Source: Methanocella paludicola SANAE
GTDB taxonomy: Archaea > Halobacteriota > Methanocellia > Methanocellales > Methanocellaceae
Assembly (NCBI RefSeq): GCF_000011005.1
Contig: NC_013665.1
Span: forward strand, 124,001-188,000
Length of the DNA: 64,000 nucleotides
Reading direction: 5' to 3'
A model generated the notes under the pieces. That model worked only from the letters and a program-made list of their open reading frames with translations. It had not been told where the DNA came from and ran no database searches. A program made the position numbers and the translations under genes. This document shows, piece by piece, positions 26,887 through 32,598 of this stretch. How positions within the stretch are numbered: the first letter of the stretch is position 1; each line of letters starts with the position of its first letter.

Positions 26887-28308
26887 TCACTCGCCCTGGC
26901 CTTCCATCCCAACGGCGGCAAGGAACCGGCGGGTCACGGCCTCTTCGGTCAGCTTCATCAGGATGGCCCGGTCCTTGACGCCGCTGAACACGCCTAGGGG
27001 GATCTGCGCCGCGGCGGTCTTCTGGTGGCCGCCGGCCGAGCCGATCTCGCCGAAGGCCTTCTGGACGGCGTCCCCTATGTTGATGCGGATGTCCTTGCTC
27101 CTGGCGGAAATGAATATGCGGTCCTCGGTGATGCCGAACACGAGCACCGTGGAGATGCCCTCCAGCTTCAGCAAATAGTCGGCGGCCTGGGGCAGGGTAT
27201 CACGGTCGTGGATGAAGCCGACGTTCGAGATGAGGTAGCTACCCTCGATCTTCTTGTTCCGGATGGCGACGCCCAGGACGTCCATCGCCTCCGGGGACAT
27301 GGACGGCGTCTCGATCTGGGATAAGAGGTCCTTATCCACGAACCCGTAGAGGTATGCGGCCGCGTTGAGGTCGGCGGCCGAGGTGTTCCGCTTGAACTCG
27401 TTCGTGTCGGTCCGGATGCCGTATAATAGCGCGGTCGCCAGGTTGCTCGTCAGCTCGAAGTCGAGCTCCTGCAGGTACCTGGTCATCATGGTGGACGACG
27501 CCCCCACGTCGGGCCTGATGTCCACGAAGTCCGCGCCCGGCTCGATCCCGTCGGGAGGCGGGTGGTGGTCGATGATCACGTTGACCCGGGTGCCCCGCGG
27601 GAGGGAGTTGTTCTTCCCCGGCGTGTTACAGTCCACCAGCGCGATGACGGAGTACCTGTCGGGGATCCCGTTAGTAATGTGGATGAGCGGTATGTCTAAA
27701 AGGTTCACGAAGGCCCGGGTCTCGTGGTGGCCGATGGTGCCGTAGTAGAGGATGTCGGCGCTCCTGCCCAGGCTCTCGGCCATGGTACGGAGGCAGAGCG
27801 CGCTGGCGAACGCGTCGGAGTCGGGGTTGTCGTGCACCACGATGCCTATGCGCTGGTCCGGATCCAGTGTTTTTATGTAGCTCATGAGCTGCCACGCCGC
27901 CCCCCTGAGCTCCATCTTCTGTAGCTCGTTGAGCGCCTCGTCGGCGACGATGGTGGGCGGGTGGAGCACGATGTCGGCGCCGGCCCTGTAGAGCTCGTCG
28001 ATGGTGAGCAGGTCGACGGCCCTGGCCATGACGAACGGCGCGGGCGACTGGCTTTTCACGAATTCGAGGGCCTTGACGTTGGCGGCCTGGCTGGAGCTGA
28101 GGATGAATATGCCTTCGACGCCCTTAAGGGGCAGCTCCTGTAGTATCCTGTATGAGCCGATGTCGCCCTCCACGGCCTCGTAGTCCTGCTCCCGTAGCGC
28201 CTCTACCCTGGCCGGGTCCGCGTCGACCATGAGGAAGTCTTTCCGGGATCGTGTCAGTTCCCGTGCCAGAGCGACGCCTATGCTGCCTCCGCCGAGGATG
28301 ATGTACAA
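26887..28308 (-). CDS. DHH phosphoesterase with N-terminal RCK (TrkA-N) domain
   Basis: A 473-residue fusion. The first about 115 residues are a Rossmann RCK/TrkA-N domain (IILGGGSIGVALAREL then VEGDIGSYRILQEL), which in potassium-channel regulators binds NAD(H) or nucleotides. Residues about 150-330 are a DHH catalytic domain: DNPDSDAFASA (metal motif), DCN, and DHHPPPDG. The last 120 residues are DHHA1 with GSAGGHQKTAAAQIP. This DHH/DHHA1 order is that of nanoRNases and c-di-AMP/pApA phosphodiesterases. A cyclic-dinucleotide link is inferred from family, not shown here. It converges on the regulator gene across palindrome 2. Confidence 0.88.
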   Translation of the reverse strand: MYIILGGGSIGVALARELTRSRKDFLMVDADPARVEALREQDYEAVEGDIGSYRILQELPLKGVEGIFILSSSQAANVKALEFVKSQSPAPFVMARAVDLLTIDELYRAGADIVLHPPTIVADEALNELQKMELRGAAWQLMSYIKTLDPDQRIGIVVHDNPDSDAFASALCLRTMAESLGRSADILYYGTIGHHETRAFVNLLDIPLIHITNGIPDRYSVIALVDCNTPGKNNSLPRGTRVNVIIDHHPPPDGIEPGADFVDIRPDVGASSTMMTRYLQELDFELTSNLATALLYGIRTDTNEFKRNTSAADLNAAAYLYGFVDKDLLSQIETPSMSPEAMDVLGVAIRNKKIEGSYLISNVGFIHDRDTLPQAADYLLKLEGISTVLVFGITEDRIFISARSKDIRINIGDAVQKAFGEIGSAGGHQKTAAAQIPLGVFSGVKDRAILMKLTEEAVTRRFLAAVGMEGQGE

Positions 28309-28487
28309 GTATTTTTGTTTGTGTAGCGGCGGGAGCTCGCCGAGCTGTCTTGCCTGTACGATTAGCCCTCCGTTCTCGTTTTTTTGTCTTTCTTTAAAAG
28401 GTGCGATAGTTGTGATGGATGTTGATAAACTTTGTGCGGGCGGGCGTGGCTGGCTATATACCGCAATGTATATATCCTAGATGAGAC

Positions 28488-28547: not shown

Positions 28548-28624
28548 GGGCCCGTGGCTCAGTCAGGCAGAGCGGCGGACTCTTAATCCGCATGCCATGG
28601 GTTCAAATCCCATCGGGCCCGCCA
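28548..28624 (+). tRNA. tRNA-Lys (anticodon CTT)
   Basis: The full cloverleaf is visible: acceptor GGGCCCG (28548-28554) pairs with CGGGCCC (28614-28620), the D-arm is GCTC...GAGC-like, the anticodon stem GCGGA/TCCGC encloses the loop CTCTTAA with anticodon CTT at 28582-28584, and the T-arm is ATGGG-TTCAAAT-CCCAT. The discriminator base is G, followed by an encoded CCA (28622-28624). No intron is present. Confidence 0.97.
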
Positions 28625-28796: not shown

Positions 28797-29180
28797 ATGA
28801 AGGTACTACTCGCCACCGATGGCATGCCCCACACCGACAGGGCCATTGATTACGCCATAGACTACGCGTCCAGGTACAGGGCGGCACTCTTCGTCGTGTA
28901 CGCGCTCAGCCCTGGCAGGGACCAGAAGGCCGCCTACGCGGAAGGCAAGGAAACGGTACAGGGCATCAAGCAGAAGGCGCTCTCCAGGGAGGTAGGCATC
29001 ACGACCATGCTGGAGGCGGGGGAGCCCGCGGAGGCGATCGTCAGGACGGCGGACAAGATCGGGGCGGACGCCGTCATCCTGGGCGCGTCGGGGAAGTGCG
29101 AGGGCAGGAAGAGGCCGCTGGGAAGCGTCTCGGCCAGGGTGGTGCAGGACGCCTGCTGCTCGGTCTTTATCATACGCTAG
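28797..29180 (+). CDS. Universal stress protein (UspA family)
   Basis: A 127-residue single-domain UspA protein: KVLLATDGMPHTDRAIDYAI at the start, LEAGEPAEAIVRTADKIGADAVILGASGKC in the middle, and the ATP-binding-type end GSVSARVVQDACCSVFIIR. The G-2x-G-9x-G(S/T) nucleotide motif is mostly present (GASGKCEGRKRPLGSVS). Role and trigger are unknown. It lies in its own transcript after the tRNA gene. Confidence 0.92.
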   Translation: MKVLLATDGMPHTDRAIDYAIDYASRYRAALFVVYALSPGRDQKAAYAEGKETVQGIKQKALSREVGITTMLEAGEPAEAIVRTADKIGADAVILGASGKCEGRKRPLGSVSARVVQDACCSVFIIR

Positions 29181-30188: not shown

Positions 30189-30857
30189 TTACGGCATCTT
30201 CATGCCGCACTCGCCGCAAAACCTTGTCCCGAGGGCCACCTTGTTGCCGCACTTCGGGCACACGGCCATGCCTAACGGGGCGCCGCAATTGTTACAGAAC
30301 TTGCCCTCGCCGGCGGGCTTGCCGCAGGCAGGACAGGTAGTAGTGCGCCGCTCGATCTCGCCGTGGAACACGCTGGCCTTCTGGGCCTTCTCCTGTATTT
30401 CCTGCTTCATGCGCTCGGCCCGTGCCGCCGTGACCTCGACGTTCTCCCTCGGCGCATCCTCGACGCACATGCCGTCGTCCTCGTTCCAGTCGGCATCGCA
30501 CACGTACTGCCGGCACTTGGGGCAGCGGTGGAAGTGGCCTTTGGCCTCGTTCTGGGCCTCCTCGAAGGCGACCTCGTACTCCTTGTGCCATTCGGGGGTC
30601 ATGCCCGAGTGGCGGTTGTGCATCAGGTCCGCTCCCCGGCTGGCGGCGTTGCCTATCCTGGAGGCGCCGGCCAGGTCGGCGCCGATCTGCACGGCCTTGC
30701 CGAACATGTTGAACAGGTTGGCCTTTTTATACGTTTTCGACTCGATGAACTTCGACTTGTATCCGTCGCCGCAGATGTCGCACTTGAAGATGAACTGGAA
30801 CCCCGCCTCGGTGCACAGGTCCTCGTAGTTCTTCGTAAATGATTGAAACTCTACCAT
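30189..30857 (-). CDS. Multi-zinc-ribbon protein (cluster gene 3)
   Basis: A 222-residue protein with four CxxC pairs in its first and middle parts (CDICGDG, CPKCRQYVC) and two tandem zinc ribbons at the end (CPACGK...CNNCGA and CPKCGN...CGECGM). Between them is a Gly/Ala-rich segment (GKAVQIGADLAGASRIGNAASRGADL in parts) and a helix with acidic and basic residues. It resembles zinc-ribbon partners found with SPFH or repeat proteins in other prokaryotes. No enzymatic motif is seen. It lies 15 bp downstream of the second zinc-ribbon gene. Confidence 0.75.
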   Translation of the reverse strand: MVEFQSFTKNYEDLCTEAGFQFIFKCDICGDGYKSKFIESKTYKKANLFNMFGKAVQIGADLAGASRIGNAASRGADLMHNRHSGMTPEWHKEYEVAFEEAQNEAKGHFHRCPKCRQYVCDADWNEDDGMCVEDAPRENVEVTAARAERMKQEIQEKAQKASVFHGEIERRTTTCPACGKPAGEGKFCNNCGAPLGMAVCPKCGNKVALGTRFCGECGMKMP

Positions 30858-30872
30858 TATGCTCCCTCCGTT

Positions 30873-31199
30873 TTACTTTTTCAATGGCTTACCGCATTTC
30901 GAGCAATTCGGGCCCACCGCGGGCTGCACCGTGCCGCACTTGGGGCAGGTCACCTTGAGCGAGGCGCCGCACACTTCGCAGTTATCCCCGAAGAAGGTCT
31001 GCTTGCCGCACACGGGGCACGCCGTCTGGAGCGACAGCCCGCAGTGCGGGCATACCGCATAGTCCTTCTCGATATTGTCCCTGCACCGGGGGCACTTTAG
31101 CGACCCGATGGGCGTTCCCTTGCCGCAGTACGGGCATATCCTGGCGTCGGGTGGCACCAGCTTGCCGCAGTACCGGCAGGGCTGCTTATAACCGGCCAT
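30873..31199 (-). CDS. Triple zinc-ribbon protein (cluster gene 2)
   Basis: A 108-residue protein made almost only of CxxC pairs: CRYCGK, CPYCGK, CPRCRD, CPHCGL, CPVCGK, CEVCGA, CPKCGT, CSKCGK. These pair up as about four zinc ribbons in tandem. It should be a scaffold or nucleic-acid/protein binder. It is the middle gene of a three-gene same-strand cluster with the 450-residue protein upstream (46 bp gap) and the 222-residue protein downstream. Confidence 0.78.
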   Translation of the reverse strand: MAGYKQPCRYCGKLVPPDARICPYCGKGTPIGSLKCPRCRDNIEKDYAVCPHCGLSLQTACPVCGKQTFFGDNCEVCGASLKVTCPKCGTVQPAVGPNCSKCGKPLKK

Positions 31200-31245: not shown

Positions 31246-32598
31246 TTACTTCGTGTATTTCGCCCGGTCGTCCTTAGACTTCACGTTGAACTCCAGAACA
31301 GCCCGGACAGCCTTCTGCCACTGCGCCTTGTTGACGTGGATGGCCCGCCCCACGAAGTGGCTCCGCAGCTCGCGAAGCAGGGGCAGCTTCTGCACGGAGT
31401 ACCAGTACTTGATGTTCCTCGGAAGCTCCAGGTCCTCGTCTGAAGTAAATATCGGCTCCCTCCTGAAGTTGATGGAGAGCATGCAGTCGTTCAGGGACCT
31501 GATGAAGGCGTCCGCCGCGGCGTCCATGTCCGCTGCCGGGTACTGGCTCCTGGGCACGATGCTGAACACGTACGTCGCCCAGCGCCCGCCGCTCTTGTTC
31601 ACTTCCTCGTCCTTCGGCTCCTCTTCGGTGGCCTCGCCTTCCGCCGCTGACTGGAGGGGCTCCACTGTCTCGCCCTCGCCGACCGTCACCGCCTCCAGGA
31701 TCATGGCGTTCGAGGCGGGTACCGGGGCCAGGATCCAGACGTAGTCGCCCGTGACGTCGCCCATCAGGCCTCTCTTGAACCCGGCGCACATCCTGTCCTT
31801 CTGCGCCAGCGTCCCGATGAACTTATATTCCTCCAGGATGCCGACCTCCTCGATCTTCTTCTCCAGGCCGCGCCAAATGGCCGGGGATATGGCGTCCAGG
31901 TCGGCCTTCCTCGCAGCCTTGCCGTCCCTCATGAGCCTGGCCGCCCTCCTGAGCGAGGACGAGTCGATGCCCGGGGTGAAGCCTTTTATCAGTTCCTGCG
32001 TCTTCAGGGTGAGCGTGTTCATGGCGTCGTTCAGGGCCTTCTTGAAGGGCTCGTGCCGGCCGCCCATCCTGGAGATGGTCAGCTTTTCGCCGCTCTCCAT
32101 TGTGAGCGTGAGCGAGTAGTCGCCTTCCGCGATGCCGGCGATGTTGCTGTACTGGAATCGCAAGGGCTCGCCCCGCTCGACTGCGAGCACCAGCCCTGCC
32201 TCGAACAGGCGCAGCTCGCAGCCGCCCGATCTTCCCTCATACTCGTAGAAGCCCTTCAGGCCTCCCAGCACCAGGCTCTCCTGCATGAGCATGTCCTTCA
32301 TGACCACGTCGTTCCTGGCCTTCGAGAGTATGCGGGAAAAGTTCTCGAAGTTGATGCCCAGCTTCGTGATGGCGAGCTTTTCCTTCGACGTCAATAGTAA
32401 ATTGATAGAATAGTCGCCTTCGGCGAACTCCAGTATCTCGCGGGGCGAAAAGAGTATGGCCTCGCCCAGCTTCGGGACGATCGATACGTTCTCCTCGTCG
32501 ATGCGCCCCACCGCGGCGCCGCTGCTGATGGCGCCGCCGTCATCGCTCAGCGAGTACTCGAGGGGGCACTCAATGAGCTTTGTAGCCTCGTCGCTCAT
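31246..32598 (-). CDS. Repeat-containing protein of the zinc-ribbon cluster (cluster gene 1)
   Basis: Not recognised. The 450-residue protein has two copies of an about 100-residue unit in its N-terminal half; each contains an AEGDYS motif (around 60 and 155), an EKL(A/T)I strand and a helix ending near RILSKARND or KALNDAMNT. The units are beta-rich and PH-like in style. Then comes an Ala/Arg-rich helical hinge, a beta-rich domain (DYVWILAPVPASN), an acidic low-complexity loop (EGEATEEEPKDEE), and a last alpha/beta domain. No signal peptide or membrane helix is present. It is the first gene of the cluster with two zinc-ribbon proteins. Confidence 0.65.
   Translation of the reverse strand: MSDEATKLIECPLEYSLSDDGGAISSGAAVGRIDEENVSIVPKLGEAILFSPREILEFAEGDYSINLLLTSKEKLAITKLGINFENFSRILSKARNDVVMKDMLMQESLVLGGLKGFYEYEGRSGGCELRLFEAGLVLAVERGEPLRFQYSNIAGIAEGDYSLTLTMESGEKLTISRMGGRHEPFKKALNDAMNTLTLKTQELIKGFTPGIDSSSLRRAARLMRDGKAARKADLDAISPAIWRGLEKKIEEVGILEEYKFIGTLAQKDRMCAGFKRGLMGDVTGDYVWILAPVPASNAMILEAVTVGEGETVEPLQSAAEGEATEEEPKDEEVNKSGGRWATYVFSIVPRSQYPAADMDAAADAFIRSLNDCMLSINFRREPIFTSDEDLELPRNIKYWYSVQKLPLLRELRSHFVGRAIHVNKAQWQKAVRAVLEFNVKSKDDRAKYTK

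Follow-up and report, generated by a model that had tools for sequence, protein, structure and literature searches.

At positions 26,887 to 28,308 of the window, by which is meant the whole 64,000-nucleotide stretch of Methanocella DNA analysed here, lies a gene that joins a potential nucleotide sensor to what looks like a phosphoesterase. Its product, here called RCK-DHH, is laid out as follows.

26887..28308, minus strand: RCK_N-DHH-DHHA1 protein of 473 amino acids, read from a TTG through the stop codon
27958..28305, minus strand: TrkA_N / RCK_N domain, residues 2-117 (Pfam), with a fold like 3llv, MthK, and KtrA
28276..28293, minus strand: GGGSIG nucleotide-binding loop, residues 6-11, with G6, G8, and G11 in 40/40 aligned members
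27868..27960, minus strand: long helix between the two halves, residues 117-147 (predicted model)
27415..27852, minus strand: DHH domain, residues 153-298 (Pfam)
27814..27834, minus strand: motif I, HDNPDSD (H159, D163, D165), residues 159-165 (alignment)
27631..27633, minus strand: motif II aspartate, D226 (alignment)
27562..27570, minus strand: motif III, DHH (D247 H248 H249), residues 247-249 (alignment)
27406..27408, minus strand: motif IV aspartate, D301 (alignment)
26998..27243, minus strand: DHHA1 domain, residues 356-437 (Pfam)
27025..27033, minus strand: GGH motif, residues 426-428 (alignment)

All three domains are found by Pfam above the curated cut-offs, with E values of 5.5e-23 for TrkA_N (81.9 bits, against a cut-off of 23.8), 2.5e-13 for DHH, and 3.5e-11 for DHHA1. 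This bears out the core of the original prediction, that an RCK sensor and a DHH/DHHA1 enzyme share one chain; the motifs that it named (GGGSIG, DNPDSDA, and DHHPPP) are found exactly as it wrote them. Motifs I-IV and GGH, by which the DHH-DHHA1 superfamily is recognized, are all intact, and we take them to have their catalytic roles here. At residue 29, the acidic residue that ends strand 2, 38 of the 40 aligned members have Asp and 2 have Glu; with G6, G8, and G11, this is, as a sequence pattern, the usual signature of a Rossmann-fold nucleotide site. The RCK part can be refined. RCK_N is present, but RCK_C (TrkA_C) gives no Pfam match at E 0.01, and the DHH domain starts at residue 153. Nor is there a DHHA2 match at E 0.01, DHHA1 being present instead, and no PAS or GGDEF match lies ahead of DHH, where only TrkA_N precedes.

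The reported TTG start sits right at the edge of strand 1. Two features lie upstream of it.

28360..28362, minus strand: probable start codon, ATC, adding 18 residues before the reported start
28367..28371, minus strand: GGAGG, the probable ribosome-binding site, four bases upstream of the ATC

The ATC at 28362 puts the N-terminus at the position where starts lie in Methanosarcina and Methanolobus relatives, and is probably the true start. The survey of starts covered 57 distinct entries (58, with one duplicate removed) from the Methanosarcinia, the Methanocellia, and groups close to them, with the window included; other groups, mostly with ATG, were not counted. In 32 of the 57 loci, an in-frame ATT (17), ATC (10), or ATA (5) lies 4-9 nt past a GGAGG, with no NTG there. 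TTG (10) or ATG (3) is found in another 13, and the last 12 have no strict pair. For 14 of the 32, the frame holds no ATG, GTG, or TTG whatever from the upstream stop to the domain; the remaining 18 have one somewhere, and some of these may therefore start there. As a control, 593 other ORFs of such loci were read over a fixed stretch past the upstream stop, a test that differs from that applied to the 57 loci; 44 have the pair with NTG and 7 with ATT, ATC, or ATA only (8 before RCK-DHH itself, at L162, was removed). An AUU, AUC, or AUA start after GGAGG appears to recur in many Methanosarcinia and in Methanocella. If true, a non-AUG start would hold the expression of RCK-DHH low.

A fold model (mean pLDDT 91.3, pTM 0.66) gives an RCK part, the helix of residues 117-147, and a DHH-DHHA1 part; with this pTM, the placing of the domains relative to one another is less sure. 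Among the VIA-align matches listed, the RCK_N closest to that of Methanocella is 3llv, an exopolyphosphatase-related NAD(P)-binding domain from A. fulgidus (Z 19.9, 30% identity). That entry differs in holding only the N-terminal domain, some 140 residues; the whole fusion is carried by four Archaeoglobaceae loci (L164, L185, L189, and L199). The fold is also that of the RCK domains of KtrA, KtrC, TrkA, and MthK (KtrA 5but, 4.4e-27 by profile), where MthK and KtrA/KtrC are among the closest solved RCK domains, both with ATP-bound entries. Unlike these, the Methanocella protein has no RCK_C after its RCK_N. In KtrA and CpaA, c-di-AMP binds RCK_C. As RCK_C is missing here, c-di-AMP is more likely to be a substrate of RCK-DHH than its RCK ligand.

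For the other half, a profile made from the 40 members places GdpP (5xsi) first among DHH-DHHA1 structures at 3.2e-18. The next whole-length match is 9n0l, a c-di-AMP phosphodiesterase (1.4e-17), followed by 3dev (4.9e-10), DhhP of Borrelia (1.1e-9), TmPDE (1.2e-9), and NrnA (4.4e-8). Foldseek also has GdpP first, narrowly (5.9e-21, with TmPDE at 6.5e-20 and a RecJ-like structure at 1.7e-19). Among the VIA-align matches listed, GdpP gives Z 26.8 over 311 residues with 25% identity and TmPDE gives Z 23.8; NrnA, DhhP, TmPDE, and Rv2837c all have the same fold, with Z 21-24. The closest solved DHH-DHHA1 is that of GdpP (PDB 5xsi, 5xsp, and 5xt3), and this closeness favours c-di-AMP as the candidate substrate. 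GdpP itself has PAS and a degenerate GGDEF in its N-terminal parts. Because only TrkA_N precedes DHH in the Methanocella protein, it is not filed as a GdpP.

The fusion is an old archaeal protein rather than a curiosity, being matched at E <= 1e-10 in 266 of the 294 genomes of its own phylum and in 15 of the 23 genomes of a second phylum. Nearly all of the own-phylum matches are full length among those listed; the 266 include weaker, perhaps fragmentary, matches in three genomes (G031, G082, and G198). Over a whole-length alignment, 39 relatives are 42-70% identical, and these full-length relatives, with the matches across the phylum, exclude chance. A pseudogene is likewise ruled out by the 40 aligned members. 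The alignment (A1) holds 40 of 41 sequences, L113 having been omitted for an in-frame TGA in its match. When contigs were scanned with the single RCK-DHH protein as query, no relative was returned; with A1, 554 relatives were found, of which 80 were kept. The named relatives among the best matches belong to the Methanocellales and Methanosarcinales.

Thus, the fusion is neither unusual nor rare, and its architecture is already in print. A widespread archaeal group of matching architecture, arCOG01566, is described in PMC3307487, where the account of the group names none as characterised and proposes no c-di-AMP role. By its architecture and range, the Methanocella protein very probably belongs to it. 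Three Haloferax proteins (HVO_0756, HVO_0990, and HVO_1690) stand as predictions under the c-di-AMP item of a table in PMC8305020, credited there to an earlier paper. In Haloferax denitrificans, a convergent PRC-barrel gene adjoins RCK-DHH; because this neighbour matches HVO_1691, the "PRC domain protein" of PMC8406309, we infer that HVO_1690 corresponds to RCK-DHH. The apparent Haloferax counterpart is, therefore, already a published prediction of a c-di-AMP phosphodiesterase. Experimental proof of that role was looked for in the open-licence literature, and none was found there.

The original prediction proposed a search for a DisA-like cyclase, whose absence would have spoken against it. 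Two DAC-domain proteins are found by profile in the genome, so that this objection falls away: one of 289 amino acids with DacZ_A and DAC, and a second of 216 amino acids with DAC. The shorter (L002:1273-1920) has a hydrophobic C-terminal end, and the three genomes of the same family likewise have two DAC matches each. The DacZ-type protein (Pfam DacZ_A + DAC) is the predicted producer of c-di-AMP; it would run the reverse reaction, and its gene is not adjacent to that of RCK-DHH.

Across the phylum, DAC is found in 263 of the 294 genomes. Both RCK-DHH and DAC are present in 255, RCK-DHH only in 11, DAC only in 8, and neither in 20; the genomes without a match were in part deduced from the numbering G000-G293 (8 and 11), consistently with the tallies. 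For the 234 good genomes (at least 90% complete, at most 5% contaminated), the corresponding counts are 212, 5, 2, and 15 (Fisher p 1.2e-17, relatedness ignored), in a table assembled by hand from completeness that agrees with the tallies of 217/234 and 214/234. Among these, the discordant genomes are G024, G037, G092, G178, and G187, which lack a DAC match, and G006 and G050, which lack RCK-DHH. In a second phylum (n=23), 13 genomes have both, 2 RCK-DHH only, 1 DAC only, and 7 neither (p 0.001, relatedness again ignored). The co-absences may reflect few loss events, and the p values therefore overstate independence. One family (f19) has neither in 10/10 genomes seen, and one genus (g15) has two genomes with both and five with neither; family labels of the genomes with neither cover all but G232, G261, and G290. 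As a control, a stand-alone DHH-DHHA1 protein (C1:2763607-2764542) is present in 62 of the 294 genomes, including the 10 f19 genomes seen, which means that this family did not shed such enzymes generally. The presence and absence of RCK-DHH tracks that of the cyclase; the stand-alone DHH-DHHA1 protein does not.

The surroundings of the gene had been described as free of channel genes. As far as genes with an RCK domain go, this is correct: the next TrkA_N match is about 381 kb distant. The window has these features near RCK-DHH.

28548-28624: tRNA-Lys, between RCK-DHH and the Usp-family gene
28797-29180: Usp-family gene, beyond the tRNA-Lys
30189-30857: zinc-ribbon ORF, beside the 450-aa ORF
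30873-31199: small cysteine-rich ORF, beside the 450-aa ORF
31246-32598, minus strand: 450-aa ORF, with no Pfam match at E 0.01

The Usp gene belongs to a small cluster (85), an ORF of which also lies near RCK-DHH in one relative (L114). Forty neighbourhoods were fetched in addition to the window; the ORF clusters in at least three families were viewed, five were traced, and a part of the clusters was annotated. An operon with a cyclase or a potassium channel was considered and set aside, none appearing among the clusters viewed in these 41 loci. The commonest neighbour is a PRC-barrel (PF05239) gene, found in 18 of the 41 loci under 17 family labels; in haloarchaea, and at some loci elsewhere, it is close by and convergent. 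The window itself is without one. Loci having it near or convergent to RCK-DHH include L089, L098, L100, L101, L108, L112, and L198, among others. We take CdpB1 to be HVO_1691. CdpB1 and CdpB2 are PRC-barrel proteins of the Haloferax divisome (PMC12186497), and the regulator CdrS has dacZ and HVO_1691 among its targets, binding upstream of each (PMC8406309). An MptE-like gene (PF01973) occurs in 10 loci. In seven of these, from six families (L097, L102, L103, L104, L105, L109, and L119), it comes immediately after RCK-DHH in the same orientation and is itself followed by a conserved radical-SAM-like ORF, so named by eye from its sequence. It is possible that these two form an operon with RCK-DHH in several methanogen-like families. 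M50-CBS, Thg1, and TraB genes also recur as neighbours.

In the haloarchaea, copies of the protein have decayed in reciprocal fashion. At E <= 1e-30, each of 35 genomes, taken as haloarchaeal because they are close to named haloarchaeal loci, has between two and four copies. Another ten genomes have several matches at the looser E <= 1e-5, which include fragments and RCK-only hits. The 132 sequences compared comprise ten non-halophile members, one unclassed (L295, dropped), and 121 in three classes, the haloarchaeal loci being among L050-L079 and L209-L298. In class A (57, of which 56 are distinct), all four residues of the RCK site are kept in 56/56, the full catalytic set in 1/56, and motif III DHH in 7/56. 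Class B (44) has the catalytic set in 44/44 and the RCK-site residues in 8/44; most of its copies retain an RCK-like region though the site has decayed, and one match (G077, L278) contains a TAG in frame. Class C lacks RCK; its catalytic set is intact in 20/20 fetched, or 19 distinct genes, L298 and L271 being one gene. A FastTree built on the DHH-DHHA1 part places class A in one clade (0.996) and class B, together with L298, itself a B gene, in another (1.0); class C is not a single clade.

The simplest reading is that haloarchaeal paralogs have divided sensing from catalysis between them. Such a split would mean that the RCK site has an importance of its own, and suggests that selection keeps this site separately from catalysis. 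Proteins of classes A and B may form a heteromer. HVO_0990 and HVO_1690 are named together in PMC10294847 among the proteins that rise under hypochlorite, which is in keeping with a joint role, where HVO_0990 is a candidate for class B.

Taken together, these observations make it rather probable that RCK-DHH is the main c-di-AMP phosphodiesterase of Methanocella, controlled by a nucleotide on RCK_N. Here, a metal-dependent DHH-DHHA1 centre would open c-di-AMP to pApA, and possibly carry it on to AMP. The nucleotide on RCK_N would set this activity, its signal travelling via the long interdomain helix. RCK-DHH would oppose the DacZ-type cyclase, and c-di-AMP, with osmotic and potassium balance, would thereby be tied to energy or redox state. 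The substrate, the direction of regulation, the RCK ligand, and the physiological role are all given here as what we infer. The link to c-di-AMP first proposed for this protein has gained from the cyclase in the genome, from the co-occurrence, and from GdpP being closest; the sensing of NAD(H) or ions by RCK, proposed with it, has advanced no further than plausible, GxGxxG and the acidic residue being kept.

Several things count against the c-di-AMP reading: the narrow Foldseek lead, the low identity to GdpP (about 25%), the nearly equal match of pyrophosphatases to the DHH half by itself, the seven discordant genomes, and the lack of a recurrent cyclase or potassium transporter among the neighbour clusters viewed. 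Further, enzymes with DHH-DHHA1 can use pApA, nanoRNA, or pAp instead; the archaeal DHH enzyme PyapApase, as reported in PMC8268124, is specific for pAp and does not act on c-di-AMP. RCK-DHH might, then, be a housekeeping enzyme for one of these, NrnA-like or PAP-phosphatase-like, linked to the cyclase only indirectly, for example by clearing the pApA of another enzyme. The fold that it shares with NrnA, DhhP, TmPDE, and Rv2837c is compatible with this, as are the five good genomes that have it without a DAC match. However, the profile puts GdpP nearer than these enzymes, and it is RCK-DHH, not the stand-alone DHH protein, that follows DAC in two phyla; we regard the housekeeping alternative as unlikely, if worth serious attention.

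It is also conceivable that RCK_N is a structural or dimerisation module, exerting no ligand control over catalysis. Its ligand is putative, RCK_C is absent, and the RCK-like region persists in most class B copies despite a decayed site. Against this stand the three invariant glycines and the acidic residue at position 29 in 40/40, and a class A that has all four site residues in every member though catalysis is mostly lost; we regard a purely structural role as unlikely. An identity as inorganic pyrophosphatase or exopolyphosphatase, after the name given to the structural-genomics relative 3llv, is very improbable indeed. The best NCBIfam match is a manganese-dependent pyrophosphatase model, and pyrophosphatases match the profile nearly as well as GdpP does (up to 3.6e-17, for 1wpn). 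Both kinds of match cover the DHH half only, however, the NCBIfam score (55.3 bits) is far under the model cut-off of 283, and the dinucleotide phosphodiesterases give whole-domain matches. This identity was dropped because the protein has DHHA1 rather than DHHA2.

To return to the c-di-AMP phosphodiesterase, a broader version can be put forward tentatively, and is on the whole doubtful: RCK-DHH may be a general archaeal thermostat for c-di-AMP, present in haloarchaea as sensor and enzyme subunits in a heteromer, and limited in amount by an AUU, AUC, or AUA start in the Methanosarcinia and Methanocella.

For Haloferax volcanii, a 2021 paper calls the phosphodiesterases that degrade c-di-AMP "currently unknown" (PMC8646023); dacZ is essential in that organism, and its overexpression is lethal (PMC8406309). 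The fusion itself is less of a novelty than its coupling to the cyclase, its division in haloarchaea, and its start codon. If the c-di-AMP reading is right, as is likely, an enzyme that tracks the cyclase, with a natural division into sensor and enzyme in a genetically tractable group, would offer a direct route to the half of c-di-AMP signalling that archaea still lack on paper, and to the cue that it senses.
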